From: Antedon mediterranea
Taxonomy: Eukaryota; Echinodermata; Crinoidea; Comatulida; Antedonidae
Reading direction: 5' to 3'
DNA length: 64,000 nucleotides
NCBI RefSeq assembly: GCF_964355755.1
Contig: NC_092676.1
Span: 4,446,288 to 4,510,287 of the forward strand
The notes below the pieces were generated by a model that searched no databases, was not told where the DNA came from, and worked only from the letters and a program-made list of their open reading frames with translations. A program made the position numbers and the translations under genes. Of the stretch, positions 1-27,800 are shown one piece after another (the stretch's first letter is position 1; each line of letters starts with the position of its first letter).

Positions 1-620
1 ATTATAATTGATTAATATTATTACATAATTGCACAATTTGTGATCGTATAAAAAATATCTTTATAAATCACAAGTTTTTAGTTCATCCACCATGAATGAA
101 CTTTATTTTTGTGTAATACATAATAATTCTGAATTAATCTTAAATGTAAAATTTCACAATATAAATATCATTATAATGATTGTTATACTAATTAATTAGT
201 ATTTGTTTATGTAGTGATTTTGTTTTATGATAATAAAAATTATTAAAATATAAATATATATTTTATATTTTTACATCATTAAAATGTTGATACAATACAT
301 TGCATGTATTGTAGGATCAATTGTAATAATGGACTAATAATATGTACCTTATGATTCCATGATTATTTACAGTAAAAACCAATTTTAAAATCAACATTTT
401 TAAAATGTATCCACCATGATTGAACTATTTATTTTTGTAAGATCTAACAATTGAAACTGAATCTGAATTACATATAGATAATACATTTATTATATGGTTG
501 CTATCAAACAATTTGAATTTGTTGACATTTTGTTTTCAGAAAATATGTTAATCAAATAAATTTACAACATTTTTATTTTAACATAGTATATTTTGACATA
601 ACTAAAGTACATACAATAGA

Positions 621-651
621 GTACATGCAGTATAACTACTGTATAATGTAC
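621..651 (+). promoter_or_regulatory. Conserved intronic hairpin, copy 1
   Basis: Imperfect hairpin: outer stem GTACAT/ATGTAC, inner stem CAGTA/TACTG, loop TAAC. It ends 107 nt before the LRR exon at 759. Confidence 0.55.
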
Positions 652-758
652 AGGAATGCAGACATTTCAACATTTGAGGTGACAGAAAAACCAAAATAAT
701 TTAAAAACAGCTTGGATATTGTGATTTACTTATACTGTGCATTCTTTTTACTTTTAAG

Positions 759-830
759 GGATTTGGAAAATAACCAAATAAGTACATTACCAGCCAATGT
801 ATTTGCTGGTTTGACAGCATTGGAATACCT
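759..830 (+). CDS. LRR exon 1 in window (72 nt)
   Basis: Preceded by a ttttaag acceptor and followed by a gtaagt donor; phase 2 at both ends. It encodes one LRR with framework NQISTLPANVFAGLTAL; the concave-face residues are D, E, N and the exon ends in E-Y before the shared Leu. Confidence 0.88.
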
Positions 831-3800
831 GTAAGTGTATTGCTTATGTTTGCTTACTTTTAACAATTTGGTTTTAATTTCGAAATTAAATTACAAATTA
901 TTTTACATTGTTGGTTAAGAAATGATAATGGATTAATATTATTATATAATTTCACAATTTGTGATCTTATAAAAAAACTTAAAAAAGCAATAGTTTTTTG
1001 CTCATCCAACATGAACAAACTTTATTTTTTGGAATAATATTATAATAATTCAAAATACATTTTTATTGTAAATGTCACAAATATAAATATTATTATAACA
1101 AATGTTAATAAATAATTAGTATTTGTTTATTTAGTGATTTTGTTTTATGATAATAAAAATTAATAAAATATAAATATATATTTTGACATTAAATATTGAT
1201 ACAATACAGTGCATGTATTGTAGGATCAATTGTAATAATGGACTAATAATATGTACTTTATGATTTCATGATTATTTACAGTAAAACCAATTTTAAAATC
1301 AACATTTTTAAAATGTATCCACCATGATTGAACTATTTATTTTTTTTAAGATATAACAATTGATACTGAATCTGTATTACATATTAGATAATACATTTAC
1401 TATATTGTTGCTAACAAACAATTGAATTTTGTGTAGAAAATTTGTTTTAAGAAAATAAGTTATTTGAATATATTTACCACATTTGTATTTTAACATAGTA
1501 TATTTTGACATCACTAAAGTACATACAATAGAGTACATGCAGTATAACTACTGTATAATGTACAGGAATGTAGACATTTCAACATTTGAGGAGACAGAAA
1601 AACTAAAATAATTTAAAAACAGCTTGGATATTGTGATTTACTTATACTGTGCATTCTTTTTACTTTTAAGGTTTTTGTACAGTAACCAAATAAGTACATT
1701 ACAAGCCAATGCATTTGCTGGTTTGACAGCATTGGAAACACTGTAAGTGTATTGCTTATGTTTGCTTACTTTTACAATTTGGTTTTAATTTAGAAATTAA
1801 ATATAAAATTATTTTACATTGTTGGTTAAGCAATGATAATGGATTATTATTGTTACATAATTGTACACTTTGTGACCTAATAAAAATATCTTTATAAATC
1901 ACTAGTTTTTAGTTCATCCACCATGAATGAACTTTATTTTGGTGTAATACATAATAATTCAAAATTAATATTAATTGTAAAATTGTACAATATAAATATC
2001 ATTATAATGATTGTTATGCTAAATAATTAGTATTTATGTTGTAATTTTGTCTTATTAGAAAAAAATCATCAAAATATAAATACATATTATATATTTTGAC
2101 ATTATTAAAATATTGATACAAACAGTGCTTGCATTAATATTATTATATAATTTCACAATTTGTGATCTTGTAAAACATATCTTAAAAATCACTAGTTTTT
2201 TGCTCATCCACCATGAATGAACTTTTTATAATATATAATTCAAAAATAATTGTTATTGTAAATATCACAATATAAATATCATTATAACAAATGTTACTAA
2301 ATAATTAATATTTGTTTATGTTGTAAGTTTGTCTTAATTATAAGAAAAAAATTATTGAAATATAAATATATATTGTGATCATCTTTTAAAAAATCAATAG
2401 TTTTTAGTTCATCCACCGTGAATGAACTTTATTTTTGTGTAATACATAATAATTAAAAATAATAATAATAATTCAAAATCAATCACTATATAAATATCAT
2501 TATAATAATTACTATTTGTTTATGTAGTGATTTTGTTTTATGAGAATAAAAATTATTAAATATATATTTTATATTTTGACATTAAAATGTTGATACAATA
2601 CAGTGCATGTATTGTAGGTTCAATTGTAAAAATGGAGTAATAATATGTACTTTATGATTCAATGATTATTTACAGTAAAACCAATTTAAAAAGCAACAAT
2701 TTTGTAATGTATCCACCATGATTGAACTATTTATTTGTGTAAGATACTAAATATGTATTACATATTAGATAATACATTTATTGCATGGTTGCTAACAAAC
2801 AATTTGAATTTGGTGTAAAAATTTTCTTTTGTGAAAATAAGTAATTTAAATATATTTACCACATTTTTATTTTAACATAGTATATTTTGACATCACTAAA
2901 GTACATACAATAGAGTACATGCAGTATAACTACTGTATAATGTACAGGAATGTAGACATTTCAACATTTGAGGTGACAGAAAAAATAAATAATTTAAAAA
3001 CAGCTTGGATATTGTAATTTACTTATACTGTGCATTCCTTTTACTTTTAAGGTCTTTGAGCTATAACCAAATAAGTACATTACAAGCCAATGCATTTGCT
3101 GGTTTGACAGCATTGAAAAGACTGTAAGTGTATTGCTTATGTTTGCTTACTTTTACCTATTTTGTTTTATTTTGTTTTTTAAATTACGGATTCGGATTCT
3201 AACATTATTGACCTTTGACCTTGATTTATCATATCTTAGCAACCACTAATCTGAGAGACACACAATATGGCTCAAACTGTTCAGAAACTACATATTTATA
3301 TTTAGTCTAATGGCATGTTTTTGCAAAAAATGGCCGATTCTAACATTATTGACCTTTGAACTTTGCACTACATAAAATCGCATAACTTTGAAAATATTGT
3401 ACATATGAAATTATTTTTAGTGTCAAATTATTCAAAACATACATGTTTCTATAGAGTCCAATGACACATTATGTCCAATAATGACCTATTGTATGGTTAT
3501 TAACATTTGAACTATATTTGAAAAGGATTTTTAAACCCGGAATCTTCTTCATGTAGGCATTCATTAGAACATGTGATTTGGCACTACTTGTTTAGAATAT
3601 GGTGGTAATTTAAAGTGCATGTAACCAGTTGATTTAAATTAAATTTAAAAACTGAAAATATTCACTTAAAAAAAAATATTAGACTATATATACATACATT
3701 ATAGGTTTGGATTATTAATACATTTTTAATTAGGTCTTACATCTTACTCAGGAGAAAGTTGGTGTTGACACTATTAACAGAGCCAACAAAAATGTATTTT

Positions 3801-6800
3801 TTTTTATGATATATTGTACATACTTTAAATAGGCCATGCCATTTTGCAGGTTTATTAACGTTTTTTTCAAGTTAGTAATTTATTTTATTATCAAATTAAA
3901 TTGCCATTAAATGGCATATTCAAAAAAACAAATTTCTAAAGATTATTTAGTTTATATTTTGCTAAGGATAGCATCACTCTTGAGGGCATTCTTTTAGGTT
4001 GAAACATAGTCTTATTAAGAAGGCATTTTCTACTAATAGACGCATTGTTGACAACTGGAATTTTAAAAGATCGATATTAATGCAACATATTTAGTTTAGT
4101 TTAATTAATTGGCTATCGAGACTCATAATTAGGCTGACCACCACTTGCAATATTTTCGCCGTATACAGTAAAAACCTCAGTTTCTTATGGAATTTATTTA
4201 TTTATTTCAATAACCATATACAGTACGACTACTAGTGGTGTATAGTTTTTAAGCTTTTATAACTTGTTTTTGTACTTTTTTTACGTGAATGTATTGTGTA
4301 TGTACTATGTTTCTATGTGGTTTAATTTTTACCATTTTTTAACCATCAATTTTAATGCTTTTAATATAAATATCTTGTAATTCAGCTTCAGCTGCGAAGA
4401 CGATAAGAAATAAAACTTGTAGGCAGTTTGTGGATGAATGCAATAGTTTATGCTTATAAATTTAATGTACCATGGCCTACTTTAAACTAAACATAATAAG
4501 TCAACGTTGCAACTCTTACATTTTAGAGTGCCAAATCACATGTTCTAATGGATGTCCACATGAAGAAGATTCCGGGTTTAAAGACTTTTCAAATATAGTT
4601 CAAATGTTAATAACCATACAATAGGCCATTATTGGACATAATGTGTCATTGGACTCTATAGAAACATGTATGTTCTGAACAATTTGACACTAAAAATAAT
4701 TTCATATGTACAATATTTTCAAAGTTATGCGATTTTATGTAGTGCAAAGTTCAAAGGTCAATAATGTTAGAATCGGCCATTTTTTGCAAAAACGTGCCAT
4801 TAGACTAAATATAAATATGTAGTTTTTGAACAGTTTGAGCCATATTGTGTGTCTCTCAGATTAGTGGTTGCTAAGATATGATAAATCAAGGTCAAAGGTC
4901 AATAATGTTAGAATCCGCCATTTTTTGCAAAAACATGCCATTAGACTGGATATAAATGTGTAGTTTCTGAACAATTTAAGCCCTAATTTGTATTTCTCCA
5001 ATTAGGGGTTGCTGAGATATGATAAATCAAGGTCAAAGGTCAATAATGTTAGAAATAGCACTTCCATTCATTTTTGGACAAACTTTTTCATTAAAGTGAA
5101 TATAAAAACATATATTCTAACGATTTTGACACCATAATTAAGTATCTGTGACTAGCGGTTTCCAAGATACAGAGTACGTTATTAAAAATGGCGGCCATTT
5201 TTAATTATGCAAATTAGGCTACTTCCTTTTGTCGAAAAATGTCCTAACGTTGATAAATGTGTTCAGTAGGGTCTAAAGAACACATTTCATCAAAAAAACC
5301 TTTTCTTGCAATTTGTGTGAGTTAAAAGTCTAAATCCCATTGACTAGTATTGTAGGATCAATTGTATTAATGGACTAATAATATGTACTTTATGATTTCA
5401 TGATTATTTACAGTAAAACCAATTTTAAAATCAACATTTTTAAAATGTATCCACCATGATTGAACTATTTATTTTTTAAATAACAATTTAAACTGAATCT
5501 GTATTATATATTAAATAATACATTTATTTTATGGTTGCTATGTGTAATACATAATAATTCTGAATTAATCTTAAATGTAAAATTTCACAATATAAATATC
5601 ATTATAATGATTGTTATACTAAATAATTACTATTTGTTTATGTAGTGATTTTGTTTTATGAGAATTAAAATTATTAAAATATAAATATATATTTTATATT
5701 TTGACATTAAAATATTGATACAATACAGTGCATGTATTGTAGGTTCAATTGTAATAATGGAGTAATAATATGTACTTTATGATTTCATGATTATTTACAG
5801 TAAAACACATTTTAAAATAAACATTTTTTTAATTTATCCACCATGATTGAACTATTTATTTTTTTAAGATATAACAATTGAACTGAATCTGTATTACATA
5901 TAGATAATACATTTATTATATGGTTGCTATCAAACAATTTTTAATTTGTTGTAGAAATTTTATTTTAACAAAATAAGTTATTAAAATATATCACATTTTT
6001 ATTTTAACTTAGTATATTTTGACATCACTAAAGTACATACAATAGAGTACATGCAGTATAACTACTGTATAATGTACAGGAATGTAGACATTTCAACATT
6101 TGAGGTGACAGAAAAAATAAAATAATTTAAAAACAGCTTGGATATTATAATTTACTTATACTGTGCATTCTTTTTACTTTTAAGGTATTTGAGATATAAC
6201 CAAATAAGTACATTACAAGCCAATGTATTTGCTGGTTTGACAGCATTGAAATACCTGTAAGTATATTGCTTATGTTTGCTTACTTTTACCAATTTGGTTT
6301 TAAATTAGAAATTAAATGAAAAATTGTTTACATTGTTGGTTAAACAATGATAATGGATTAATATTATTATATAATTTCACAATTTGTGATCTTATAAAAA
6401 AACTTTAAAAATCAATAGTTTTTTTGCTCATCCAACATTAACAAACTTTATTTTTTTGAATAATATTATAATAATTCAAAATACATTTTTATTGTAACTG
6501 TCACAATATAATTATTATTATAACAAATGTTACTAAATAATTAGTATTTGTTTATTTAGTGATTTTGTTTTATGAGAATAAAAATGATTGAAATATAAAT
6601 ATATATTTTATATTTTGACATTAAAATATTGATACAATACAGTGCATGTATTGTAGGTTTGATTGTAATAAGGGAGTAATAATATGTACTTTATGATTTC
6701 ATGATTATTTATAGTAAAAATAATTTTAAAGTGAACATTTTAAAAAGTATTCACCATGATTGAACTATTTATTTTTGTAAGATCTAACAATTGAAACTGA

Positions 6801-9800
6801 ATCTGTATTACATATAGATAATACATTTATTATGGTTGCTATCAAACAATTTTTAATTTGTTGTAGAAATTTTATTTTAATAAAATATACATTAAAATAT
6901 ATCACATTTGTATTTTAACATAGTATATTTTGACATAACTAAAGTACATACAATAGAGTACATGCAGTATAACTACTGTATAATGTACAGGAATGTAGAC
7001 ATTTCAACATTTGAGGTGACAGAAAAAATAAAATAATTTAAAAACAGCTTGGATATTGTAATTTACTTATACTGTGCATTCTTTTTACTTTTAAGGTATT
7101 TGAGATATAACCAAATAAGTACATTACAAGCCAATGTATTTGCTGGTTTGACAGCATTGGAAACACTATAAGTGTATTGCTTATGTTTGCTTACTTTTAC
7201 CAATTTGGTTTTAATTTAGAAAATTAAATGAAAAATTGTTTTACATTGTTGGTTAAACAATGATAATGGATTAATATTATTATATAATTTCACAATTTGT
7301 GATCTTATAAAAAAACTTTAAAAATCAATAGTTTTTTTGCTCATCCAACATTAACAAACTTTATTTTTTTGAATAATATTATAATAATTCAAAATACATT
7401 TTTATTGTAACTGTCACAATATAAATATTATTATAACAAATGTTACTAAATAATAAATATTTGTTTATTTAGTGATTTTGTTTTATGATAATAAAAATTA
7501 ATAAAATATAAATATATATTTAGGCATTAAATATTGATACAATACAGTGCATGTATTGTAGGATCAATTGTATTAATGGACTAATAATATGTACTTTATG
7601 ATTTCATGATTATTTACAGTAAAACCAATTTTAAAATCAACATTTTTAAAATGTATCCACCATGATTGAACTATTTATTTTTTTTAATAACAATTTAAAC
7701 TGAATCTGTATTATATATTAAATAATACATTTATTTTATGGTTGCTATGTGTAATACATAATAATTCTGAATTAATCTTAAATGTAAAATTTCACAATAT
7801 AAATATCATTATAATGATTGTTATACTAAATAATTATTATTTGTTTATGTAGTGATTTTGTTTTATGAGAATAAAAATTATTAAAATATAAATATATATT
7901 TTATATTTTGACATTAAAATATTGATACAATACAATGTATGTATTGTAGGATCAATTGTAATAATGGACTAATAATATGTACCTTATGATTTCATGATTA
8001 TTCACAGTAAAACACATTTAAAAAGCAACAGTTTTTTTAATTTATCCCCCATGATTGAACTATTTATTTTTGTAAGATATAACAATAGAAACTGAATCTG
8101 TATTATATATTAGATAATACATTTATTATATGGTTGCTAACAAATAATTTTTAATTTGTTGTAGAAATTTTATTTAAACAAAATAAGTTATTAAAATATA
8201 TCACATTTTTATTTTAACATAGTATATTTTGCCATCACTAAAGTACATACAATAGAGTACATGCAGTATAACTACTGTATAATGTACAGGAATATAGACA
8301 TTTCAACATTTGAGGTGACAGAAAAACTAAAATAATTTAAAAACAGCTTGGATATTGTGATTTACTTATACTGTGCATTCTTTTTACTTTTAAGGTATTT
8401 GAGCGATAACCAAATAAGTACATTACCAGCCAATACATTTGCTGGTTTGACAGCATTGGAAACACTGTAAGTATATGGCTTATGTTTGCTTACTTTTACC
8501 AATTTGGTTTTAATTTAGAAATTAAATTACAAATTAATTTGAATTGTTGATTAAGCAATTATAATGGATTAATATTATTACATAATTGCACAATTTGTGA
8601 TCTTATAAAAAAACTTTAAAAATCAATAGTTTTTTGCTCATCCAACATTAACAAACTTTATTTTTTTGAATAATATTATAATAATTCAAAATACATTTTT
8701 ATTGTAACTGTCACAATATAAATATTATTATAACAAATGTTACTAAATAATTAGTATTTGTTTATTTAGTGATTTTGTTTTAAGAGAATAAAAATTATTG
8801 AAATATAAATATATATATTTTATATTTTGACATTAAAATATTGATACAATACAGTGCATGTATTGTAGGTTCGATTGTAGTAAGGGAGTAATAATATGTA
8901 CTTTATGATTTCATGATTATTTATAGTAAAAATTAATTTTAAAGTGAACATTTTAAAAATGTATTCACCATGATTGAACTATTTATTTTTGTAAGATCTA
9001 ACAATTGAAACTGAATCTGTATTACATATTGGATAACACATTTATTATATATTAAAAATTATTGAAATATAAATATATATTTTATATTTTGACATTTGAC
9101 ATTGCTTATGTTTGCTTACTTTTACCAATTTGGTTTTAATTTAGAAAATTAAAATTATTAAAATATAAATATATATTTTATATTTTGACATTAAAATATT
9201 GATACAATACAGTGCATGTATTGTAGGTTCAATTGTAATAATGGAGTAATAATATGTACTTTATGATTTCATGATTATTTACAGTAAAACACATTTTAAA
9301 ATAAACATTTTTTAAATTTATCCACCATGATTGAACTATTTATTTTTTTAAGATATAACAATTGAACTTTTACCAATTTGGTTTTAATTTAGAAATTAAA
9401 TTACAAATTATTTTACATTGTTGGTTAAGAAATGATAATGGATTAATATTATTATATAATTTCACAATTTGTGATCTTATAAAAAAACTTTAAAAATCAA
9501 TAGTTTTTTGCTCATCCAACATTAACAAACTTTATTTTTTTGAATATTATTATAATAATTCAAAATACATTTTTATTGTAACTGTCACAATATAAATATT
9601 ATTATAACAAATGTTACTAAATAATAAATATTTGTTTATTTAGTGATTTTGTTTATGATAATAAAAATTAATAAAATATAAATATATATTTTGGCATTAA
9701 ATATTGATACAATACAGTGCATGTATTATAGGATCAATTGTATTAATGGACTAATAATATGTACTTTATGATTTCATGATTATTTACAGTAAAACCAATT

Positions 9801-12800
9801 TTAAAATCAACATTTTTAAAATGTATCCACCATGATTGAACTATTTATTTTTTTAAATAACAATTTAAACTGAATTTGTATTATATATTAAATAATACAT
9901 TTATTTTATGGTTGCTATGTGTACATAATAATTCTGAATTAATCTTAAATGTAAAATCTTGTAAAAACAAACTTAAAAAATCACTAGTTTTTTGCTCATC
10001 CACCATGAATGAACTTTTTATAATATATAATATTTCAAAATGATTTTTTATTGTAAATGTCACAATATAAATATATTTTTGTAAATCAACAATTTCAGCC
10101 GTCGGGCTGCATGTTTTTTATTATATAAACCTGAATAAATAAATAAATAAATTATTACAATTGATCCTACAATACATGCACTGTATTGTATAAACATTTT
10201 AATGTCAAAATATAAAATATGTAATCACTACATAACAAATACTAATTATTTAGTATAACAATCATTATAATGATATTTATTGTGAAATTTTACAATTAAT
10301 ATTATTTTTTAAATTATTATGTATTACACAAAAATAAATTTCATTCATGGTGGATGAATTAAAAACTAGTGATTTATAAAGATATTTTTTATAAGATCAC
10401 AAAGTGTAAAATTATGTAAATTATGTAATAATATTAATCCATTATCATTATACAGTAGTTGTACTGCATGTACTCTATTGTATGTACTAGTGATGTCACA
10501 ATATACTATGGGTAAATAAAAATGTATATTTTAATAACTTATTTTATCAAAATAAAATGTCTACAAAAAATTAAAATGTTTTGATAGCAACCATATAATA
10601 AATGTATTATCTATATGTAATACAGATTCAGTTTCAATTGCTATGTCTTACAAAAATAAATAGTTCAATCATGGTGGATAAATTTAAAAATTGTTGATTT
10701 TAAAATTAGTTTTACTGTAAATAATCATGAAATCATAAGGTACATATTATTAGTCCATTATTACAATTGATCCTACAATGCATTCAATGTATTGTATCAA
10801 TATTTTAATGACAAAATATAAAATATATATTTATATTTTAATAATTTTTATTCTCATAAAAAAATCACTACATAAACAAAATACTAATTATTTAGTAACA
10901 TTTGTTATAATGGTATATATATATATGGAAACACAAATATTTAAAAAAATACCAAAATTTATACAAAACATTAACAAATTTGAAAAATTCAGTTAAAAAA
11001 ATAAAATTATGTTAAAAAAATTACATAATTTATATACAAAATGCTTAGGCCTATATATGTAAATATTTATAACATAGCCATCTTCAGCGTGATCAGTTTA
11101 GGTACTGTTTAAATTAAGGATTCTACTTATAGTAAGGGCAGGCGAGGTCTTAAGACGGTTAGTTCTACAAACAGGTATATTATTTAGGGGTTTATGGACT
11201 AATATGTACTTTATGATTCCATGATTATTTACAGTAATTTTGTTTTAAGAAAATAAGAAATAAGTTATGAAAATATATTTACAAAAGTATATTTTGACAT
11301 ACTAAAGTATACAATAGATGGATTACATGCAGTATAATGTATTTACTGTACTACAATTTAGTTTTAATTAAAAAGGTAAATTAGAAATTGTATTTTACAT
11401 TGTAGAACAATTATAACAAAATATTTAATATATAATTTCATTATTATGTGATTATAAGTTTAAACCCCACCTCACCAAAAAAATATATATACGTATATGA
11501 TAATATAATAAATCAAAAATCAATTTTCAGTTGTTATTTTACAATATAAATATCATTTAAAATATCATTTAAGTTAATTTTACTACATTTAGTATTTGTT
11601 TACTTTAACCAGAAAACAAACAAAAATAAAAGGGATAAATGCAGTGTTTATATTACCGTAAATCAATAGATAATTGGCAACTAACTTAATTAACTGCTCA
11701 AGCCCAAACTAGCAAGACCATAATGTGCATTATTTATCATATACTGTGTATTTTTTATCATTTAAGGTGGTTGGATGGTAACCAAATACACACATTGGAA
11801 GCCTATGCATTTGCCGGTTTGGAATCATTGACAGGACTGTGAGTATTTTTTCAATACTTTTACAAACTTCCTTATTTTTAAAAGAAACTTTATTTATTGT
11901 TGTTTTAGAACTATTCTAATTATTCCAGTTGATACTGTATGTCATGGACTGCCATAACATTGCTGTAACACAGATGTCAATCAACAATAGATTTACAACT
12001 AACAATATGACTTATATTATTATTTATAATTACTAGAGGGTGAGCTCGCTTCGCTCGCTCCCCCTCTAGGAAGTGTAGACGATGGTTCTCGGAATGATAA
12101 TGTTCTCCTTATACATTTTCTGTCGGTTACCATTATTGAAAATGCTTGACATTCGTAAAACTAAACTACTTTGTTTCACAGTGTTTTAGATGATTAATAA
12201 CATTTTAAAGTATAGTTTTTATTGTTTGGTAGGGCCCTTTGGGGAGGCGGAGGTCATTTGAGGGAGGTGCTTATTCGAGGGATATATGTTAAATTTTTTA
12301 GTTCTAATAATATGGTAACATTTATAATCAAATGAAATCCTCTCATAGATATGAAAAGTGGTAAAAAAGAATAACAAATGCTTGGTAAATTGCAGATAAC
12401 AGTGCGGTGAATTCTACTACAAATAGTATAATTGTGTTATTATAAATATGTGGATGGACGTTTATTAGATAGTTGGGTTGTGGGGGGGGGGGGGGGTTAT
12501 TATTCAAAGTGATGTTTTATTGGAGAGGCGTTTATTCAAATGAATACCATCCTAATAATTATTAATACATTATTTAATTTAATCATCTTTTGAAACTAAC
12601 TGCCGTGACAGAGTGGGCCCAAGAAAGAAGACATTACGGCTTGCAACATGGGCAGACATCTCGGTCCTAACGGGACACAGGAAGATAGCCTACAGTTATT
12701 CCTGCAAGCTTACTCAATAAAACTCAGGGATTTCACTCGAAAAATGTCTTATCAAATCTCCCTATGTAATTTTATAATACTATTCCCCACAATATATTCT

Positions 12801-15800
12801 GATTCTTTATGGCGTATATTTAATTTGATCTTTATTAATTTGCAGTATAATTCTTATTATTTAACTACTGTACCTTCACACACGTGTGGTATGTTTTAAA
12901 ATAAACAAAAAACTGAAATGGCTATGATTAATGGCCAATTTTTTTTTCGTCTTCCAAAGGGACACTGTATTGATTGATGGAAAGTGCCTGTTTCCAGTCA
13001 CCTTTAGGGTCAAATCTATTATTTTAACTGCTCCCTTGTGTATAAAAGAGAGAAAATATTTGAAACTAAGGTGAACTTATCTTAAACCCGGAAATTACTT
13101 TGACCGGAAGAATTGAAATTGAGAGGAAAATCCAATGTTGAAATCATAAATGTTGTTAAAAAACTCTTTATAATATCTTCCTAAGATATAAATATGGAAC
13201 AATAGCGTCGGCGTGCACACTAACGTTATCAAATCAACGTTTCGCGGTACATCTCGGATAGATAAGGTAGGTATCCAAGGCGGAGATTTGTACCGAAGTT
13301 TTTGCATTGTGCTCGCCTATGTCAGAATTAACCATAATTTATATATAGATTATACATGACAATTTGATTCAAAGATCTCTTTTGTCACAATTTTTTTTTT
13401 TAATAAAAATTTACCATATTACTGTATCAAACAACTTAGATACTGATCGAATTTCTGTTATGAGTATACAGTACTTGCCTTTACGACGCCTGAGGGAATA
13501 GACACTTGTGGAACAGAGATTGGAATGTTCCATTCATCGCAAATCAATACATTTGTATAAACGTATATTAAATCTATCAAAATAATACTTTTTAAAGAAA
13601 ATCGGCCTGTCTTCAACATTATGATGCTGTACTCGAGCTGTTCAGCCGGTTTTCAGCGATTAAAAACAATTATCGTAGGAGGAGATAGGAAAATGCGAAG
13701 CATCCTCGCATTATTGTATGCGGGTATTTTTCAAGATGGACATGCATTAGACAGTGTATACCACGATCGGAAAACACCCCTATTTGGAGCAAATCGTTGA
13801 ACCTAAATTCGTTTTAATCGTCAATAACTAATTATCGAACTCAATTTAATTAGTAAACAGGGTTACATCAGGTGGTTAAAATCAGTATCGAAAGTACGAA
13901 CCAACTTTATATACCATCGAGTAAACATTCTAGAAATAACGCGCGATTTACCGAATAAATCAAATATCAATTTTCAGTTGTTATTTTACAATATAAATAT
14001 CATTTAAAATATCATTTAAGTTAATTTTACTACATTTAGTATTTGTTTACTTTAACCAGAAAACAAACAAAAATAAAAGGGATAAATGCAGTGTTTATAT
14101 TACCGTAAATGAATAGATAATTGGCAACTAACTTAATTAACTGCTCAAGCCCAAACTAGCAAGACCATAATGTGCATTATTTATCATATACTGTGTATTT
14201 TTTATCATTTAAGGTGGTTTGATTTTAACCAAATACACACATTGGAAGCCTATGCATTTGCCGGTTTGGAATCATTGACAGGACTGTGAGTATTTTTTCA
14301 ATACTTTTACAAACTTCCTTATTTTTAAAAGAAACTTTATTTATTGTTGTTTTAGAACTATTCTAATTATTCCAGTTGATACTGTATGTCATGGACTGCC
14401 ATAACATTGCTGTAACACAGATGTCAATCAACAATAGATTTACAACTAACAATATGACTTATATTATTATTTATAATTACTAGAGGGTGAGCTCGCTTCG
14501 CTCGCTCCCCCTCTAGGAAGTGTAGACGATGGTTCTCGGAATGATAATGTTCTCCTTATACATTTTCTGTCGGTTACCATTATTGAAAATGCTTGACATT
14601 CGTAAAACTAAACTACTTTGTTTCACAGTGTTTTAGATGATTAATAACATTTTAAAGTATAGTTTTTATTGTTTGGTAGGGCCCTTTGGGGAGGCGGAGG
14701 TCATTTGAGGGAGGTGCTTATTCGAGGGATATATGTTAAATTTTTTAGTTCTAATAATATGGTAACATTTATAATCAAATGAAATCCTCTCATAGATATG
14801 AAAAGTGGTAAAAAAGAATAACAAATGCTTGGTAAATTGCAGATAACAGTGCGGTGAATTCTACTACAAATAGTATAATTGTGTTATTATAAATATGTGG
14901 ATGGACGTTTATTAGATAGTTGGGTTGTGGGGGGGGGGGGGGGTTATTATTCAAAGTGATGTTTTATTGGAGAGGCGTTTATTCAAATGAATACCATCCT
15001 AATAATTATTAATACATTATTTAATTTAATCATCTTTTGAAACTAACTGCCGTGACAGAGTGGGCCCAAGAAAGAAGACATTACGGCTTGCAACATGGGC
15101 AGACATCTCGGTCCTAACGGGACACAGGAAGATAGCCTACAGTTATTCCTGCAAGCTTACTCAATAAAACTCAGGGATTTCACTCGAAAAATGTCTTATC
15201 AAATCTCCCTATGTAATTTTATAATACTATTCCCCACAATATATTCTGATTCTTTATGGCGTATATTTAATTTGATCTTTATTAATTTGCAGTATAATTC
15301 TTATTATTTAACTACTGTACCTTCACACACGTGTGGTATGTTTTAAAATAAACAAAAAACTGAAATGGCTATGATTAATGGCCAATTTTTTTTTCGTCTT
15401 CCAAAGGGACACTGTATTGATTGATGGAAAGTGCCTGTTTCCAGTCACCTTTAGGGTCAAATCTATTATTTTAACTGCTCCCTTGTGTATAAAAGAGAGA
15501 AAATATTTGAAACTAAGGTGAACTTATCTTAAACCCGGAAATTACTTTGACCGGAAGAATTGAAATTGAGAGGAAAATCCAGTGTTGAAATCATAAATGT
15601 TGTTAAAAAACTCTTTATAATATCTTCCTAAGATATAAATATGGAACAATAGCGTCGGCGTGCACACTAACGTTATCAAATCAACGTTTCGCGGTACATC
15701 TCGGATAGATAAGGTAGGTATCCAAGGCGGAGATTTGTACCGAAGTTTTTGCATTGTGCTCGCCTATGTCAGAATTAACCATAATTTATATATAGATTAT

Positions 15801-18800
15801 ACATGACAATTTGATTCAAAGATCTCTTTTGTCACAATTTTTTTTTTTAATAAAAATTTACCATATTACTGTATCAAACAACTTAGATACTGATCGAATT
15901 TCTGTTATGAGTATACAGTACTTGCCTTTACGACGCCTGAGGGAATAGACACTTGTGGAACAGAGATTGGAATGTTCCATTCATCGCAAATCAATACATT
16001 TGTATAAACGTATATTAAATCTATCAAAATAATACTTTTTAAAGAAAATCGGCCTGTCTTCAACATTATGATGCTGTACTCGAGCTGTTCAGCCGGTTTT
16101 CAGCGATTAAAAACAATTATCGTAGGAGGAGATAGGAAAATGCGAAGCATCCTCGCATTATTGTATGCGGGTATTTTTCAAGATGGACATGCATTAGACA
16201 GTGTATACCACGATCGGAAAACACCCCTATTTGGAGCAAATCGTTGAACCTAAATTCGTTTTAATCGTCAATAACTAATTATCGAACTCAATTTAATTAG
16301 TAAACAGGGTTACATCAGGTGGTTAAAATCAGTATCGAAAGTACGAACCAACTTTATATACCATCGAGTAAACATTCTAGAAATAACGCGCGATTTACCG
16401 AATAAATCAAATATCAATTTTCAGTTGTTATTTTACAATATAAATATCATTTAAAATATCATTTAAGTTAATTTTACTACATTTAGTATTTGTTTACTTT
16501 AACCAGAAAACAAACAAAAATAAAAGGGATAAATGCAGTGTTTATATTACCGTAAATGAATAGATAATTGGCAACTAACTTAATTAACTGCTCAAGCCCA
16601 AACTAGCAAGACCATAATGTGCATTATTTATCATATACTGTGTATTTTTTATCATTTAAGGTGGTTTGATTTTAACCAAATACACACATTGGAAGCCTAT
16701 GCATTTGCCGGTTTGGAATCATTGACAGAACTGTGAGTATTTTTTCAATACTTTTACAAACTTCCTTATTTTTAAAAGAAACTTTATTTATTGTTGTTTT
16801 AGAACTATTCTAATTATTCCAGTTGATACTGTATGTCATGGACTGCCCTAATATTGCTGTAAACACCGGTGCCAATCAATTTACATCTAACAACATGAAT
16901 TATATTATTGTTTATATACATGAAAATTTGATTCAAAGATCTCTTTTGTCAATACATTTTTTTAATGAAAATTTACAATCATACTGTATCAAACAACTGA
17001 GTGTTGACAAAGTGCGAGGCAGCGAGGCACGCGAGGCAAGCGCGGCATGCGCGGCATGCCAAATATTTGTGCGAGGCATCATTTTATCATTTCCAAAAGT
17101 GCGAGGCATATAGTTTACAATTTCAAAAAGGTGCGAGGCATATCTTAACGTGCTATTATGCTATATTATAGGCCTAATAATCAATCGATACAAGCGTATC
17201 TAAATAGATTCGTGTATACACTCATCATGTTGTTTATTTTTATGTAACGATTGTTTTTTCATTCAAGTCATATCGTGTCAAATTTTACTTTTACAAAAGT
17301 GCCCAAACTACGGTTAAAAAATCTGAACGACAGTCTTCAACTTTCGATAAACAATAATTGTTATAGCAACACACTCATCAAATGACTGCAATGTTTGTTG
17401 GCATTTCGAGCGTGTTCACTCACATGTCTCTCGAACATAGCAGAGTGAAAATAATATTTTGTCACACCCCTGCGCCTAGATCCGGTAGACCCGAGAGATG
17501 GAAAATCCCTCTTTACTATTTAGCAGGTAGCGGAATGATTCAGCCCTCAGCTCAGAGGATTGTGGTGCATTCCCCTCCTATAGCACGTGGTTTCAGCAGC
17601 AACGCACAGACTTCTCTCTGAGCGGCGTGCCAAAGACATTTTTGACATTCCATTCTCTAGGAACAACACGTGTACCTCTCTCGCAAATAAGGTGAACAGC
17701 GATTGCCAGGACAAGTTCAATAACTGGCGGTGAATAAAAGGTAACTGATATGCCGATCCAATAACATGCCGCAAAGAAAAAAATTGCGACAGAATTCTGG
17801 AGCGCGTGTGAAAAAAGACTTACGTCCGACAATTGTAATACTAGGCCTAAAATTAAACTTTAGCTAATATGCTTAGCCCTAACCTAGATAAAGGCCTATG
17901 TAGAAAATAATTTAATCAATTTTGATAAAATAATAATTGGTGTAATATTTAATAATGATACACTATTCCTGTTTTAGTAAGCTAGGTATATTACGAACGA
18001 TTTTTATTTATTGTTGTCCATGTACGTACTAATAAACCTGGCGCTAGTTTCCTTCGCTTGTATGTTTACTCCAAATTTGATAACTAACTTTATCGTGTGA
18101 ATACCACACCTTAGAAGTATACCTCATGAGTACTTTAATGAAAGAATCACATAAAAAGTAACAAATAAATCCTTAAATTAATGATTTTACAGGCGTGTTT
18201 CTCGCACACTGTTCGCGAATTTCACTTATTCAATGTTCAATATTTTTGTTTCTATGGAGCGCCAAAAGAGCAACGATAATAGAGGACTAAAACTCAGTGG
18301 AATGCGTCAATTTCTCATGCATTTATTGGTGAAAAACACGTTTTATTTCAATATATTTGTTAATTTGTCAATAAAAATGTTGTAATATGTTACTGCTGAT
18401 ACTGTTCTGTTTTCAAAGAATAATAATCGATCCTAAATCAACATCACTACCTAGTCTAGACCTAGGACATCCTACTAAGGATATTATGATGAATTTTTCT
18501 ATTTTATTCTTTAAAAGGTTAACGAAACCGTGTACATTATCAACAGTAACATTTTTCCTTACTGACAGTGACAAAATCTATTGAAATTGTACTTGATTTT
18601 CACCAAATAATGCGTTAAATATAAATGGATTCCACAGAGTTTTTAGCCCTCTAATTAATTTTGCTCTTTTGGCGTTCCATAGAAACCAAAATATTGAACA
18701 TTGAGTGTGCGAAATGCGAGAAAAACAACGTCTGTAAAATCACCAATTTAATGGATTTATTGTTACTTTTATGTGATTTTTCTTCATTAAAGTATGCCTA

Positions 18801-21800
18801 ATTCTAAGCTGTGGTATTCAGGATAAAGCCTTGGTTAAATTACAAGGCAGGTGCAAAAGGAAACTAGCCTAGCGGGCCTAGGCCTAGGCTACTTCAATTT
18901 CGGTGATTTCCTGCCTTGCAATTTTGAGAAATGATAAAATGATGCCTCGCATTTTTTGATGATGGTAAAACGATGCCTCGCATAAATTTCTGACTTGCCT
19001 CGCATGCCTTCTCTGCCTCGCGTGCCTCGCTGCCTCGCACTTTGTTACTACCCATGTAGAATTAACAATAACAGATTATTATGTATTACCATAAAACTTT
19101 GAAAAGAAGGCAATTGCTGTTTCTTTTTTTAGGATTCTTGGGTGGGCTTCTTTTCGAGATATGCTAAATTTTGAGATGGGCTTCTTTTTGTGCCGCTCCT
19201 TTAGGAGCAGCACAAAACAAGCAAGCATTAGGAAACAGTTACCATTCGGAAGGTTACAGTTTGCTAGGGCTGAAAAAATGGGTATTTGGAAACCCGGACT
19301 GGGAATGGGGGCAAACCCCAAAATTATATAAGATGTAGAACTCAATAGATAATTTGCAATTAACTTACCTGCTCAAGCCTAAGCTAGCAAGACTATTATA
19401 CTGTGCATTATTCATCATTTAAGGCGGTTGGAAGGTAACCAAATACACACATTGGAAGCCAATGCATTTTCTGGTTTGGAATCATTGACAGAACTGTGAG
19501 TATTTTTTCAATACTTTTACAAACTTTATAATTTCAAAATAAACTATATTTATTGTTATTCCAGTTGATACTGTATGTCATGGACTTCCCTAACATTGCT
19601 GTAACACTGGTGCCAATCAATTGAATAACAACATGAATTATATTATTGTTTATATACATGATTATTTTATTCAAAGATCTCTTTTGTCACAATTTTTTTT
19701 TTAATGAAAATAATTACTATAACACTGTATCAAACAACTTGGATACTGTATATGATTTTCCTTACTGTGAATTATTTTTCTGTATCAAACAACTATGATA
19801 TAATAATTTTACTTACTATGAAATATGTTATTTTGAAGGCGTTTGAATGGTCACAAAATCAGTACATTGCCAGCTAATGCATTTAACGGTTCGACAGCAT
19901 TGACAACACTGTAAGTGTTTTCTCTTGTTCATAATACTTTTATATCTTTAATTAAAGTAGAACCCCTATAATAATGGGACACCTTCAAAACCAAAATTGT
20001 CCCCATAATAGAGGTTTTTGTTGAAATAAAAACCAAACTTTTAGCAACCAATGTTTCACCAATAAAAATTGTCAAGCCTGAGAAAGTATGTTTATTTTTA
20101 CGATATTCATTTTTGATCTTGTAGCAAAATTTAATTCAATTTTAATGAGAGATGATGAACCTGGAGCAAGTGGTTGACTGAAATTAAACTTTTGTACTAT
20201 AAAAGGGTTACTATCTATATATAAATTTACGTAAGGGCAAAATTCGGTAAATCACGCGTTATTTCTAGAATGTTTACTCGATGGTATATAAAGTTGGTTA
20301 GAATCTCGGTACTGATTTTAACCACCTGATGTAACCCTGTTTACTAATTAAATTGAGTTAGATAATTAGTTATTGACAATTAAAACGAATTTAGGTTCAA
20401 CGATTTGCCCCAAATAGGGGTGTTTTTCGATCGTGGTATACACTGTCTAATGGATGTCCGTCTTGAAAAATACCCACAGACAATAATACGAGGATGCTTC
20501 GCATTTTCCTATCTCCTCCTACGATAATTGTTTTTAATGGCTGAAAACCGGTTGAACAGCTCGAGTACAGCATCATAATGTTGAAGACAGGCCGCTTTTC
20601 TTTAAAAAATACTATTTTGATAGATTTAATATACGTTTATACAAATGTATTGATTTGCGATGAATGGAACATTCCAATCTCTGTTCCACAAGTGTCTATT
20701 CCCTCAGGCGTCGTAAAGGCAAGTACTGTATACTCATAACAGAAATTTGATCCATTTTTTTTTTAATCTGTGCTGCAGAGGTTGGATATAATTTTTTTTA
20801 AACGGATAATGAGCTAGCGTTTTCAGTCGCAGTATATTATGTAAACATCTTTATTATTGCATTTAAACCACCCACATCATCACCCCTCCCTCACTGGCAT
20901 GAGTAGCGTTGTAAAGCCAGTACAGGATAGGCCTACGGTGCATCACATCCCCTAAACGCAGAACAACTTTGGTGGGTAGGGTAAGAACCAACTTAAGTAT
21001 GAATTGGCTCTAAGAAACAATTGAAAACCATTAGGCCTACTAATTAAGTTGAGTTAGATAATTTAATATTTATTGACGATTAAATCGAATTTATGATTTT
21101 CCTCGAATAGAGGTGGTTTTCACAAATTGTTTTACATTATATAAACATACACGTCGTAGTGATGTATCGTTACATGTACTGTAGCCTACTATTTCAATCG
21201 ACTAGGACGGTGATAGTTTCAACAAAGTATTACATAGCAATGTTTTACTGTGTTTAGTGGTATATTATTTGTAAAACATGAAAACAATTAATATTTCGTT
21301 ACTAAATGGATAAAGAATATATTTAATATATTTAAAAATTTTTCCTCTTTGCACCCATCCTCTTCCCCATCCCTCACCCCTAATGTTACATACAAAACAC
21401 AAATTAAGTTTGTTTAAATTTGACTTAAACAATTGGTCTCATTTTGTGACAAGTTTCTCTTTCGGAAGTAATTCTCAGGGTGCTAATTTTAGTTGAGTAC
21501 ATAAATCATTGTCTATTTATTCGTTCCTGTAAACGACATGTATTATTGTAGGCCTACGTACATTTGAAATCGCCAGTTTTTTAACGCTGCAATTATTATG
21601 TATTCGAAAACCATCTGTGGGCACGACCTAGATGGTACGCGAGCGAAGCGAGCGTACCATCTAGTTCTTTAAAATAAAGGAAAACATTTACAGGGTGGGC
21701 AAGTAAAACTTAAAAGTGGTTTTGGTGGCCAACAAAGCTGTAATTTAAAACTTTACCCTGAAAAAAAGTGTATTACATGCAATTTTCTAACAGTATGCAA

Positions 21801-24800
21801 AATTTAAGGTAATTATCCTGTAGAGTAATTGTTTTAACTTCATTTAATAATTAATATTTTATTACATTTAAAACTCCCAACAATGGGCTTTGATGTCCCC
21901 TTAGGGAGGCCTTTCAGGAGGTCCAGTTTGCCTTAATATAATTTTCACTATTTCTATCAAAATTATATTCACTGTCATAAAGTATTTAGGTAACCGGTTA
22001 CAGGATTATAAATACATGAAAAACCCCCTTATTGTCAAAAATTGTCTGTGCCTATGAGAGGTGTGTTTGTGTTTGGATGTTCTGCTAAATAGGAAAATCA
22101 TTCAGGCCTTAATACTAGTGTCTTAATGGGATGTGTCTGGGAGTTTCATACCATACTGTATTACCATATTAGAAAAAAAAAAAAAACCTTCTTGAATATT
22201 GTAATTTTATTATACTGTTCATTCTTTTTCCTTTGTAGGAGATTGGATGGTAACCAAATCAGTACATTGCCAGCCCTTGCATTTAATGGTTTGTCAGCTT
22301 TGACAGACCTGTGAGTTTTTTCATACCATTTGCTACATTTACTAATTTATGTTATTTCACTAAATTAAATCATGCATGTAGAATTAACAATAACAGATTA
22401 TTATGTATTACCATAAAACCTTGAAAAGAAGGCAATTGCTGCCTCTTTTTTTAGGATTCTTGGGTGGGCTTCTATTTGAGATATGCTAAATTTTGAGATG
22501 GGCTTTTTTTTTGTGCCGCTCCTTTAGAAGCAGCACAAAACAAGCAAGCATTAGGAAACAGTTACCATTCGGAAGGTTATAGTTTGCTAGGACTGAAAAA
22601 TGGGTATTTGACAACTCGGGCTGGGAATGGGGGAAAACTCCAAAATTATATCAGATGTAGAACTCAATAGATAATTTGCAATTAACTTACCTGGACTATT
22701 ATACTGTGCATTATTTATTATTTAAGGCGGTTGGAAGGTAACCAAATACATACATTGGAAGCCTATGCATTTGCCAGTTTGGAATCATTTGGAGTTTCTT
22801 TTCAATACTCCCTAATTGTGGTTATTATAATTATTCCAGTTAATATGATATATGATAATCAGTCCTAAGTCACGGAAGATTCAATTGAAACCTATTATTA
22901 CAATTAATGGCAAAAGCTTAGAATATTTTGACTCAACCACATATCTTGGTCATGTTATCTCCTTGGATTTATGTGATGATTTCGATATAAAGCGGCAATA
23001 CAGATCTTTGTGTATCCGAGCCAACTCATTGGTAAGAAAATTTAGCATGTGTTCTGTCGATGTGAAATGTGTTGTATTTAGAACATATTGTGTAAATATG
23101 TATTGTGCTACATAATGGTGCAACTATAATCAAGGTACCTTGCGATCTCTTAAGGTATGCTACAATAATAGGTTAAGAATGTTGCTACAAAGGCCTCGAC
23201 ATTGCAGTGCCAGCCTTATGTTTACGGACATTAGAATTCCTTCTTTCTATGAATTGTTTAGAAAATCAATATATGGCCTGATGGGTAGACTAAATGCATG
23301 CGAAAATGTTTTAGTCTCAACGATTATAAGCAATGTCTTAGTTAAGTCGAAGATGCTCTCCAGGTGGAATGTCATCCTGAGATGAGTAGTAGTAATTAGT
23401 CTTGTTTATTTTATTTCATTTATATGTACTTTTTACTTTCTATGGACCAGAGATTCCGAAATAAAAGATTGAATGAATGAATGAATGAATACTGAATGTC
23501 ATATAGACTGCCCAAACAAACATTGAGTAAACACCAGTGTCAGTCAATGAAATTCGAATGAACAACATTAATTATAATTGATTAATTGATTCAAAGATAT
23601 TTTTTTTCAATAAAAAAGAATGAAATTTTATCCTAATACTGAATCAAACAAATTATATGATTTTAATTACTATAAATTATTTTATTTGTGGTGTATGGTG
23701 TAGTCAGCTCCAGATACACTTTTCTTTCATCATTACCTCTACTGTATATTAACTACTGTAGTTTCAAGCAGGAATGCTAGTTACTCTCAGTATAACATTT
23801 TAAATCGTAATCTAGTAATCGTAGTCTTAAAGATACATTGTCCGCATATTTAAAAAAAAAGGTCACAAAAGTCACATAAATATTTAAATTCACTTTGACC
23901 AAAAATGTGATTATTTACAGTAAAAAGAAATTTCAAATAATTTTAACATCAACATTTTTAAAATGTATACACCTTGACTGAACTATTTATTTTTGTAAAA
24001 TATAACAATTGAAACTGAATAACATATTAGATAATACATTTATTATATGGTTGCTAACAAACAATTTGAATTTGTTGTAGAATTTTGTTTTTAGAAAATA
24101 AGTTATTAAAGTTATTTACCAAATTGTTATTTTTTATTGTATATTTTGACATCACTAAAGTATACAATAGATGGATTACATGCAGTATAATGTATTTACT
24201 GTACTACAATTTAATTTTAATTAAAAAGTTAAATTAAAAATTGTATTTTACATTGTAGAACAATTATAACAAAATATTTAATATATAATTATATTATTAT
24301 GTGATTATAAGTTTAAACCCCCACCCTCCTCCCACCAAAAAAAACAACTGGTTTTTAATGAATTTACCATGACTTTTAAAAATTTTTCGTATAATAATAT
24401 AATAAATCAAAATAAAATATAATTTAAGTGAGATTTATTTAATACATTTAGTATTTGTTTATGTAGTATAGGTTATATAGAGATTTTGTTTGAGTTATCA
24501 AAATATAAATAATTTTTTTAATATTAACAATTACTTTGTATTTCTCTTACTTTTAAGGATATTGCACATCGGGCAAGTCACTGATTACAGGTATTTTTTT
24601 CATAGTTACTCTTATGAATTTCTTTTGATTAATAATTAATTAGTTCAATGTATGTACAGCAAAAATGAATGCAAAAATGCTACACAGTTTTAATCTTTGC
24701 CATTTAATTATTATCATTCCGTTCAGGGTTAAGTGACACTAGGCCTACTATCACTACAGTTTGCTGTTAAAAAATAGAAGATATTTTGTCATGACTTGCA

Positions 24801-27800
24801 ACATGCCTATAAAAAAAATGGCTACAACAAACAGAATTTACCCTTTAAAAGATCCATTCAGTTGGTAATACAAATAAAATATAATTATATTTTTATTTAC
24901 TGTTACAATCTACGGTACTGTTATATTTTATTTTGTAACATAATTTAGTTTAAACAGTGGGCTATGAGAACAACATTTCTATTTTTATACCTTAGATATT
25001 GAATATGAATGAGTAAATGAATGTGAACAAAACAGGGCTATCAAACTAAAGTTAATTGACAAACATCTCATATTTCTTGTCTTGCTGCTTAAACCTTTTC
25101 TTTTAAAATCAAAACTAAACTAAACATTATTTACATATTTATTGTTTCGTTTATTTCTACTTTTTAAATTCATTTTTTATTTATGATTATTTTATTTTAT
25201 GTGGTTTTCATAAAATGAAGCATCATTCAGTACCTGTTTCATTTATTGAGTTGCAGGCTGCACTGCAGCAGTGGAATCAGGAATAAAAAAAAGTGGGGGG
25301 TATGTGGGTTTACAAAAATAACTGAATTTTGATGTATCTGTGTTGTCCACCTATATCACTAGAGTGTTATCCCGTTGAAAACAAAGAAAAGTACCTTTCA
25401 CAACCAGACAAAAAAAAACACAATATTGAATTCAATTTTGTGATAATTACCCAGTCGGAGAATTAGAATTCTTAGATCTAATCTTTAATGGTAACTAATG
25501 GTTTTAAATTATAGTTTATAGTAGTATACATAGTTTTGAATACTGCAATTTTTTTTTACTGAACTTTATTTTTTTTAGGCCTAACCTGGTGGAATCTAAT
25601 CAAATACGTACACTAGAAGCCAACGCATTTAATGGGTTGACATCACTGCCAGAACTGTGAGTATTTTTTGGGTAGGAATTTCTACAAAATTTCTAAAAAT
25701 TTCAAATAAAACTAAATTTTAGAAACTTTTTTTTCCAAACTAAAACCAACAGAAAAACATGGCACAAAATGGTATAATCATTATATTATAATAACGACGC
25801 AAAACTACAATTACAATCCTGTTGGTGCAGTACCCGCTGCTTACTTGGGCTCGAATCTAACCACTAGCCATCAGCGCAAGCTCGGTGGTCTAGAGGTATG
25901 AACGCCAGGCTAGTGATCTGGAGGTCGTGGGCTCGAGTCCCACCCGAGAACTACTTGCGAATTTTTTCGCAAGTATTCTCAAATGTACTTAGTATAAAGT
26001 ACAAATTACGTCAGAGTAGGGCAAAACATCTAATTTATTATGTAATACATAATATCTCAAAACATGAAATGTATTTAATGGTCTGCTACTTGGTTTACTA
26101 CATTGTTTTTCCTTGAAAAGGTGGTTGAGAGATTTCAATATAAGTACATTACCAGCAAATGCATTTTTAGGTTTGACAACATTGACATTGCTGTGAGTAT
26201 TTTTTCATGCTATATACTTATAATAATGATTGAATTACTTCATAAAAAATGATGTATAGCGTCTAATTCTCCGATATAAAGGCTATTTTAAAGAAAAGTA
26301 ACATAGATTTCAGTATTTAAAAATTGTTTTTAGAAAATAAAAAGTTTTTAGAAGTTATCTATACAAATAAAATGTTTTTCCTGTCTTCTTATGGAAATGT
26401 TTGAGATGATTTAAGATGGTACCAGGGAAAGTAATTCCACTCTTCCCTAATGGTATGTACCAATGCACTATATTGAATAAAAAGGACACACAGACTTTTA
26501 CGTGAGTGTCCTTTATGAGGTGTCCATTTACAAGTGGTGTCCACGGGAAGTTTTAACGGTATTATGGACCATATCTGAATAAGTATCTAAGAAAAGCGGA
26601 CACAATTTCTTAGATATTTTAATTTCTTTATATTGTGTATTTTTTGTAGGAGGTTGGACGGTAACCAAATAAGGAAATTGCCAGCAAATGTATTTAATGG
26701 TTTGATAGCACTGACAGACATGTGAGTATAATAAATGTATCCCAAATCACTACATTGTACAATTAGCAGATGCATGCTGAGTTTATCATTATAATAATGT
26801 GTAATTGAATTTTAATAAGAGATGATGAACCTGGAGCCACTGGTCAACTTGCCTGAAATAACACTTTTGTACTATGAAAGGGTTACTTTTCTCTAGTAGC
26901 AAAAGGAAAACATTTACAGGGTGGGCAAGTAAAGCTTAAGACTAATTAACGCATTGGTTTTGGTTGCCAACAAAGCTGTAAATGGAAGAATAACTTATAA
27001 AAACTTTAACCAGAAAACAAACAAAAATAAAAGGGATAAATGCAGTGTTTATATTACCGTAAATCAATAGATTTGCAACTAACTTAATTAACTGCTCAAG
27101 CCCAAACTAGCAAGGCCATAATGTGCATTATTTATCATATACTGTGTATTTTTTATCATTTAAGGTGGTTGGATGGTAACCAAATACACACATTGGAAGC
27201 CTATGCATTTGCCGGTTTGGAATCATTGACAGAACTGTGAGTATTTTTTCAATACTTTTACAAACTTCCTTATTTTTAAAAGAAACTTTATTTATTGTTG
27301 TTTTAGAACTATTCTAATTATTCCAGTTGATACTGTATGTCATACTGCCCTAATATTGCTGTAACACCGGTGCCAATCAATTTACATCTAACAACATGAA
27401 TTATATTATTTTTTATATACATGAAAATTTGATTCAAAGATCTCTTTTGTCAATACATTTTTTAAATGAAAATTTACAATCATACAGTATCAAACAACTT
27501 GGATGTATATGATTTTAATAACTATGAATCATTTTATTTTGAAGACGTTTGAATGCTCACAAAATCAGTACATTGCCAGCTAATGCATTTAATGGTTTGA
27601 CAGCATTGACAACACTGTAAGTGTTTTATTTAGTTCATAATACTTTTATAATTATCTTTTTTAATTATACATTTTAAAATAAAATTTAATGAGAAAAAAG
27701 ATAGATGCTGTTAATTTTATTCATTTGTTCTTTATAATGGTTCCGAAACGTTGTTCTTTTTTGTCATTACATTTTATTTTAAAGTTATGTAGTAAACGTC

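Follow-up and report, generated by a model that had tools for sequence, protein, structure and literature searches.

Divergence concentrated at the predicted binding-face codons of tandem leucine-rich repeat exons in an LGR-type receptor gene of Antedon mediterranea

Introduction

A 64,000-nucleotide (nt) stretch of the genome of the crinoid Antedon mediterranea (NC_092676.1, positions 4,446,288 to 4,510,287; hereafter the window) opens with a series of short leucine-rich repeat (LRR) exons, which are nearly identical apart from a few codons. An earlier note on this DNA, made from the letters alone, had described six such exons, placed their differences mainly at the x positions of the LxxLxLxxN motif, and compared the pattern to agnathan variable lymphocyte receptors (VLRs) and plant resistance LRRs. 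This raises the question of what kind of receptor the exons belong to, and which process keeps one part of them constant and another part divergent. We read the array, here called array-1, as coding for the variable section of an LRR ectodomain in an LGR-type G-protein-coupled receptor (GPCR) with about 26 LRRs, whose binding face has probably been diversified in the germline. Positions are counted from the first letter of the window, negative numbers lying upstream of it, and published work is cited from excerpts of the papers named.

Results

Variation at the x codons of array-1

The six exons of the earlier note are real, but they are the last six of an array of 15, the other nine lying upstream of the window. 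Two of the x residues of LxxLxLxxN, residues 22 and 23, come from one exon and the other three, residues 1, 3, and 4, from the next, so that each beta-strand spans a splice junction. Across the 15 exons the nucleotide difference is 0.40 in these five x codons, 0.035 in the remaining 18, and 0.015-0.04 in the ~190 nt of intron directly upstream, bearing out the concentration of variation over a near-invariant framework that had been noticed by eye. All the residue alternatives listed at that time are present in the six exons, and the additional Ala/Val/Thr and Pro/Gln sites do vary, at codons 14 (A/V/T) and 11 (P/Q). The variable positions of LxxLxLxx are exposed on the concave LRR sheet (PMC8226289), as had been supposed, and by LRR geometry the x sites would form one surface.

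We extended the comparison to 43 distinct exons from five loci, counting pairwise differences between paralogous exons rather than alleles. The exon finder returned 53 exons, from which 9 were dropped as 3'-type and 2 as exact duplicates, while one was added by hand; a looser finder gave 46, adding to the same 43 both duplicates and one exon missed before (SLSRHQIST..., C5). Of the five loci, three were sampled over 28 kb only and contribute partial arrays, and for C7:4.06 Mb the first of two near-identical locus copies was used. The proportion of nonsynonymous sites that differ (pN) is 0.397 in x codons and 0.038 in the framework, and the synonymous proportion (pS) is 0.077 and 0.0165, respectively. 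The x codons hold 76% of the nonsynonymous differences, and only 3 of the 33,649 possible five-codon sets, the x set among them, hold as many. In all five loci, taken separately, the x pN is above the framework pN: 0.45 against 0.046 in this gene, 0.46 against 0.019 at C7:4.06 Mb, 0.30 against 0.040 at the C5 locus, 0.37 against 0.034 at the C9 locus, and 0.36 against 0.008 at C7:3.18 Mb. The ratio is 10.4 overall (bootstrap 8.6-13.6). Framework constancy is partly built in, since the exon finder demanded several framework residues; at the 11 framework codons left unconstrained, pN is 0.061 (0.068 in this gene), 6.5 times below the x value.

The comparison set in advance, of x divergence with both framework and neutral divergence, has the same outcome overall when introns and the seven-transmembrane (7TM) exon serve as neutral yardsticks. 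In the 43-exon set the adjacent upstream intron differs by 0.058, the distal upstream intron by 0.086, and the downstream intron by 0.121 on average, and the x pN is 7.0 (4.9-16.2) times the upstream and 3.2 (2.4-5.4) times the downstream intron value by bootstrap. When the 7TM exon of this gene is compared with that of a relative lying 394 kb upstream, 17 of 212 synonymous and 4 of 715 nonsynonymous sites differ (pS 0.080, pN 0.0056). The distal intron, the downstream intron, and the 7TM pS are the fairer yardsticks, because the proximal intron is unusually uniform and flatters the contrast; the x pN stands 3 to 5 times above them.

The 12 LRR exons that follow array-1 in the same gene provide an internal control. 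Their x pN is 0.31, framework pN 0.19, and pS 0.23, so the factor between x codons and framework is 1.6 there and about 10 in array-1, and their x pN is just 1.4 times the pS. The sharp contrast is a property of the array-1 exons and not of LRR exons in general.

At codons 1, 3, and 4 the 43 exons use only Y, S, D, G, R, N, E, W, and F, with Tyr 40, Ser 31, Asp 21, Gly 10, Arg 10, and Asn 10 times among 129 codons. All 113 pyrimidine-ended codons of these 129 keep the third base of their column, the first and second bases being those that vary; synonymous AGA and AGG are also seen.

An LGR-type receptor gene

At the DNA level the gene as read here includes a Cys-rich exon at about -8685 and a 7TM exon at 32657..33680. 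The exons and the intron block listed in this section lie on the plus strand. The upstream exon (CPTYCTCN...C) was found by eye, and we label it as LRRNT type; it joins in compatible phase, and a Pfam search of the joined exons gave no LRRNT match.

The nine upstream array-1 exons lie between -7222 and -91, within 7.3 kb 5' of the window, and start at -7222, -6428, -5635, -4765, -3686, -2776, -1999, -1079, and -162. The six in the window are found at 759..830 (DLENNQISTLPANVFAGLTALEY), 1671..1742 (FLYSNQISTLQANAFAGLTALET), 3052..3123 (SLSYNQISTLQANAFAGLTALKR), 6185..6256 (YLRYNQISTLQANVFAGLTALKY), 7096..7167, and 8395..8466 (YLSDNQISTLPANTFAGLTALET, the last of the 15), each being 72 nt long with phase-2 introns and an AG acceptor (CTTTTAAG). 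Length and phase are the same in all 15 exons, so any subset keeps the frame; all 15 are open, and 14 have a GT donor. Among the window exons five carry GTAAGT, while exon 7096 has the mutated donor ATAAGT and is therefore probably skipped in splicing, which its length of 72 nt would allow with the frame intact. The intron block of ~190 nt ahead of the array exons, for example at 570..758, is far more uniform than the remaining intron, and two copies fold somewhat better than shuffled sequences, the effect being modest (z -2.29, for single-stranded 590-700, and -1.99). It could be a splicing element.

A separate feature of the array is an inverted repeat in the intron that separates exon 3052 from exon 6185 (3193-3530 and 4580-4917), with 338-nt arms that are 98% complementary, which looks like an inserted element of the foldback type.

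The 12 3' LRR exons lie at 11767..11838 (WLDGNQIHTLEAYAFAGLESLTG), 14214..14285 (WFDFNQIHTLEAYAFAGLESLTG), 16661..16732 (WFDFNQIHTLEAYAFAGLESLTE), 19424..19495, 19839..19910, 22239..22310, 26650..26721, 27165..27236, 27545..27616, 28292..28363, 30886..30957, and 31307..31378, the last being the final one found ahead of the hinge. The gene model excludes an open LRR-like stretch near 22,727 that has no GT donor. When 14 array-1 exons (without 7096) and the 12 3' exons are joined in phase at the DNA level, they give an open frame of 26 repeats with a Pfam LRR_8 match of 3.5e-182, and we infer that the exons are spliced together into one transcript.

The exon at 32657..33680 encodes a Cys-containing hinge (YSEYSSLCC...CEPSDAFASCEDLL) immediately ahead of the first transmembrane helix, presumably comparable to the hinges of LGRs, and a rhodopsin-like 7TM domain of LGR type (7tm_1, 4.1e-31). 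The top Protein Data Bank matches of the domain are RXFP1 (8.3e-47), FSHR (1.9e-31), LHCGR, and TSHR, and the best solved-structure match of ten array-1 repeats is LGR4. The assignment to the LGR type rests on these matches, to RXFP1 and then the glycoprotein-hormone receptors for the 7TM domain and to LGR4 for the repeats. A strict LDLa pattern has no match in the 124 kb scanned, and a looser one finds only an un-LDLa-like Cys-Leu tandem repeat, in three places in each of two regions.

Further downstream, the minus strand at 48412-59598 carries open reading frames that belong to a separate gene or genes. One is Ser/Gln-rich with tandem MSSVPPSYP repeats, and another has repeated LSEGRI motifs and no Pfam match.

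Duplication and exchange of exons

Several introns of the gene are nearly identical copies of one another. Within array-1, the introns -7222 to -6428 and -6428 to -5635 are identical save for one gap. The introns -3686 to -2776 and 6185 to 7096 differ at 16 of ~838 nt, and the exons beside them differ at 4 of 5 x residues on the left and 3 of 5 on the right. At the C5 locus, the members of two intron pairs are 2 and 9 substitutions apart, and their right-hand exons differ at x sites. Over the exons compared, x divergence is uncorrelated with intron divergence (r = -0.15 and 0.02). All four combinations of states occur in 300 of 496 pairs of two-state sites, a failure of the four-gamete test that could also arise through recurrent mutation.

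One exchange is visible in the 3' group, outside array-1. The introns 11767 to 14214 and 14214 to 16661 differ at 1 nt in 2375, while exon 14214 has its 5' part as in exon 16661 and its 3' part as in exon 11767, with flanks that agree. Exon 14214 is thus a chimera of its neighbours, produced by unequal exchange inside the exon.

Two further duplications were seen in the window. Copies of array-1 intron lie at 10151-10864 in an orientation opposite to the array, where no minus-strand LRR motif was reported. A larger duplication (17000-21500 and 28440-32960, ~11.4 kb apart) bears the exons 19424/19839 and 30886/31307, with 192 differences in 3838 positions of a rough alignment.

Relatives in the genome

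The search covered 354 Mb in 18 contigs. The exon-start pattern has 341 matches with at most 3 mismatches, against 1 in the control, and the exon-end pattern 109 against 0; these matches were not individually checked as exons. Zero-mismatch starts make up 88 of the best 100 of the 341, and 85 of these 88 are followed within 45 kb, on the same strand, by an LGR-type 7TM match, which is stop-free for 68. The three without such a match are at C7:5.02 and 5.24 Mb. At positions 1, 3, and 4 the 88 places show 56 distinct triples of residues, with H, I, and T occurring rarely, and the free framework columns differ by 0-0.09 in 84 of them (the segmental duplicate described below left out). Among these zero-mismatch places, codons with a different third base are found in the cluster at C7:8.27-8.31 Mb.

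The genome holds at least 122 7TM matches (124 of 250 first-look candidates were scored). Of 72 analysed, 66 cover 296 or more of the 322 residues, 58 of them without a stop. Relatives on C5, C7, and C9 have 7TM domains 97-99% identical, and arrays that differ in x residues and, over the parts compared, in exon number.

Three groups of loci stand apart. The receptor loci at C7:4060432 and C7:4179550, 119,118 bp apart, encode the same five array-1 exon proteins and a 7TM domain identical over 930 nt; either the segment was duplicated recently or the assembly contains it twice. Compared at this fixed offset over 40 kb, the two loci show an identity of just 0.59, presumably since length changes put them out of register. 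At C7:22105521-22132934 (+) there are nine array-type exon ends with no LGR-type 7TM match downstream on the same strand among the matches listed, possibly a non-GPCR gene sharing the same LRR cassettes. At C7:8266118-8309603 and C3:10809623-10851434, array exons lie beside stop-bearing 7TM matches, apparently broken relatives.

Discussion

How the binding face may have diversified

We favour the view that this is an expanded LGR family whose ligand-binding face has diversified in the germline, through the duplication and exchange of exons and through diversifying selection, and give it a probability of roughly 0.8. Each 72-nt exon would supply one LRR, the five x codons placing their side chains on the concave beta-sheet. 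Tandem duplication of exons would renew this face, and unequal crossing-over or conversion, breaking within exons or next to them, would keep changing it, with diversifying selection acting on the x codons and purifying selection preserving both the 7TM domain and the leucine/asparagine framework. A scaffold that stays uniform, an exposed face that changes fast, and a signalling domain that is nearly frozen are together what one would expect under selection for varied ligand recognition.

Several observations weigh against this reading. Of three near-identical intron pairs at the C9 locus, two have flanking exons with the same residues and represent plain duplication. Codons 11 and 14 vary without being x codons, codons 22 and 23 are less variable than codons 1, 3, and 4, and the x pS itself exceeds the framework pS. 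Recombination breaks tree-based dN/dS, and the counts are pairwise; as the variation is between paralogous exons, old divergence kept under homogenised flanks could mimic part of the excess. Finally, neither an LRRCT-type cap exon nor a signal-peptide exon was identified at the locus.

Old divergence is the most serious of the alternatives. The exons could have diverged long ago, with gene conversion later evening out the introns and framework and sparing the x codons, which would suit the four-gamete failures and the introns only 0-2% different that flank exons with unlike x codons in this gene and at the C5 locus. Conversion should, however, drag the x codons along unless their variants are selected, given how homogeneous the framework codons are only a few bases away. 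This explanation then needs selection too and merges with the one we favour; as an account of its own we regard it as unlikely.

A second possibility is combinatorial use, where phase-matched exons are alternatively spliced in the manner of Dscam, or somatically rearranged, so that one gene yields many receptors. The shared length and phase of all 15 exons and the uniform, modestly folding block ahead of them count in favour of such a system, but the gene appears complete in the germline. In descriptions of LGR genes each LRR usually has its own exon, all in a single phase, and the phase match is expected from that layout alone. We consider combinatorial use improbable.

Relaxed constraint, under which exposed x positions tolerate any residue while framework and flanking intron are held, would dispense with positive selection altogether. 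It would suit the solvent exposure expected of the x positions and the unusual uniformity of the exon framework and proximal intron. Relaxed sites should nevertheless stay at or below the neutral level, whereas the x pN of 0.40 is ~5 times the 7TM pS and 3.2 times the downstream intron. The invariant third bases of pyrimidine-ended codons and the restricted residue set at codons 1, 3, and 4 also speak against it. With the x pN above every neutral yardstick tried, we set this explanation aside as very improbable. A decaying or non-coding repeat array, suggested by the broken donor of exon 7096 and the stops in the 7TM matches of some relatives, is scarcely credible given 15 open exons, 14 GT donors, and an open 7TM frame whose pN/pS relative to a paralogue is ~0.07, a sign of purifying selection.

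Possible ligands

Under the favoured germline diversification, the predicted face would bind varied ligands, which could come from microbes or parasites, from other individuals, or from the environment. In the snail Biomphalaria sudanica, schistosome resistance is associated with a region that contains a cluster of GRL101-like LGRs, the strongest variants being in a neighbouring gene (PMC12297450), and this location makes an immune role plausible rather than established. For a GRL101-like receptor of starfish, a chemosensory role was suggested (PMC6267866). We hold immune or self/non-self recognition to be somewhat likelier than chemosensing, and a recognition role against non-self is tentative, at a little under even odds. 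Considerably more speculative, and in our view doubtful, is an antibody- or VLR-like repertoire of GPCRs, in which LRR cassettes with a Tyr/Ser/Asp-rich variable face, arising by duplication and exchange, perhaps with combinatorial splicing, are wired to G proteins for self/non-self or pathogen recognition.

Comparison with known systems

The gene shares with the LGR family (glycoprotein-hormone receptors, LGR4-6, RXFP1/2) the predicted LRR ectodomain, the Cys hinge, and the rhodopsin-like 7TM domain. The mammalian members are hormone or R-spondin receptors. The difference lies in the ectodomain, which has about 26 LRRs here, including a recently duplicated hypervariable block, and 16-18 in type B or about 10 in type C LGRs (PMC4561518). 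The gastropod GRL101-like receptors (SudRes2, B. sudanica) are likewise clustered and expanded LGR-type receptors, with gene presence/absence variation, and carry LDLa and C-type lectin domains, for which the crinoid gene was compared in LDLa only, pattern scans finding no such module; hypervariability at x sites is not described in the excerpts (PMC12297450).

The likeness to VLRs and plant resistance LRRs holds as an analogy of pattern, but the architecture is that of an LGR-type GPCR, which the earlier note did not mention. VLRs are assembled somatically from flanking LRR cassettes and lack a 7TM domain, whereas the germline gene here looks complete and bears one. They have in common with it the LRR modules and, by prediction, a concave recognition face, the antigen-binding surface of VLRs being the concave one (PMC4731796). 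A VLR homologue is ruled out, as the 7TM exon follows the array in phase and the arrayed exons bear splice sites. The highly variable plant NLRs share the variability at concave LxxLxLxx positions and vary in repeat number as well (PMC8226289), but theirs is allelic variation in intracellular receptors, and here it is between paralogous exons of a GPCR. The crab VLR2 of Eriocheir sinensis is also an invertebrate LRR receptor, with isoforms that differ in LRR length; its diversity is attributed to alternative splicing, and the excerpts mention no GPCR domain (PMC10045472). A published LRR-GPCR with hypervariable exon arrays was not found among the titles and abstract openings screened in the literature searched, whose coverage of subscription journals is thin.

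The picture that emerges is of a GPCR family whose signalling half has hardly changed, whereas its predicted binding face has diverged at several times the pace of the neutral yardsticks; unequal exchange has left its trace in the DNA. If the receptors do recognise pathogens or other individuals, they would represent another independently diversified concave LRR face, one coupled to G proteins, and would bear on the presence of an LGR cluster in the invertebrate resistance locus SudRes2.

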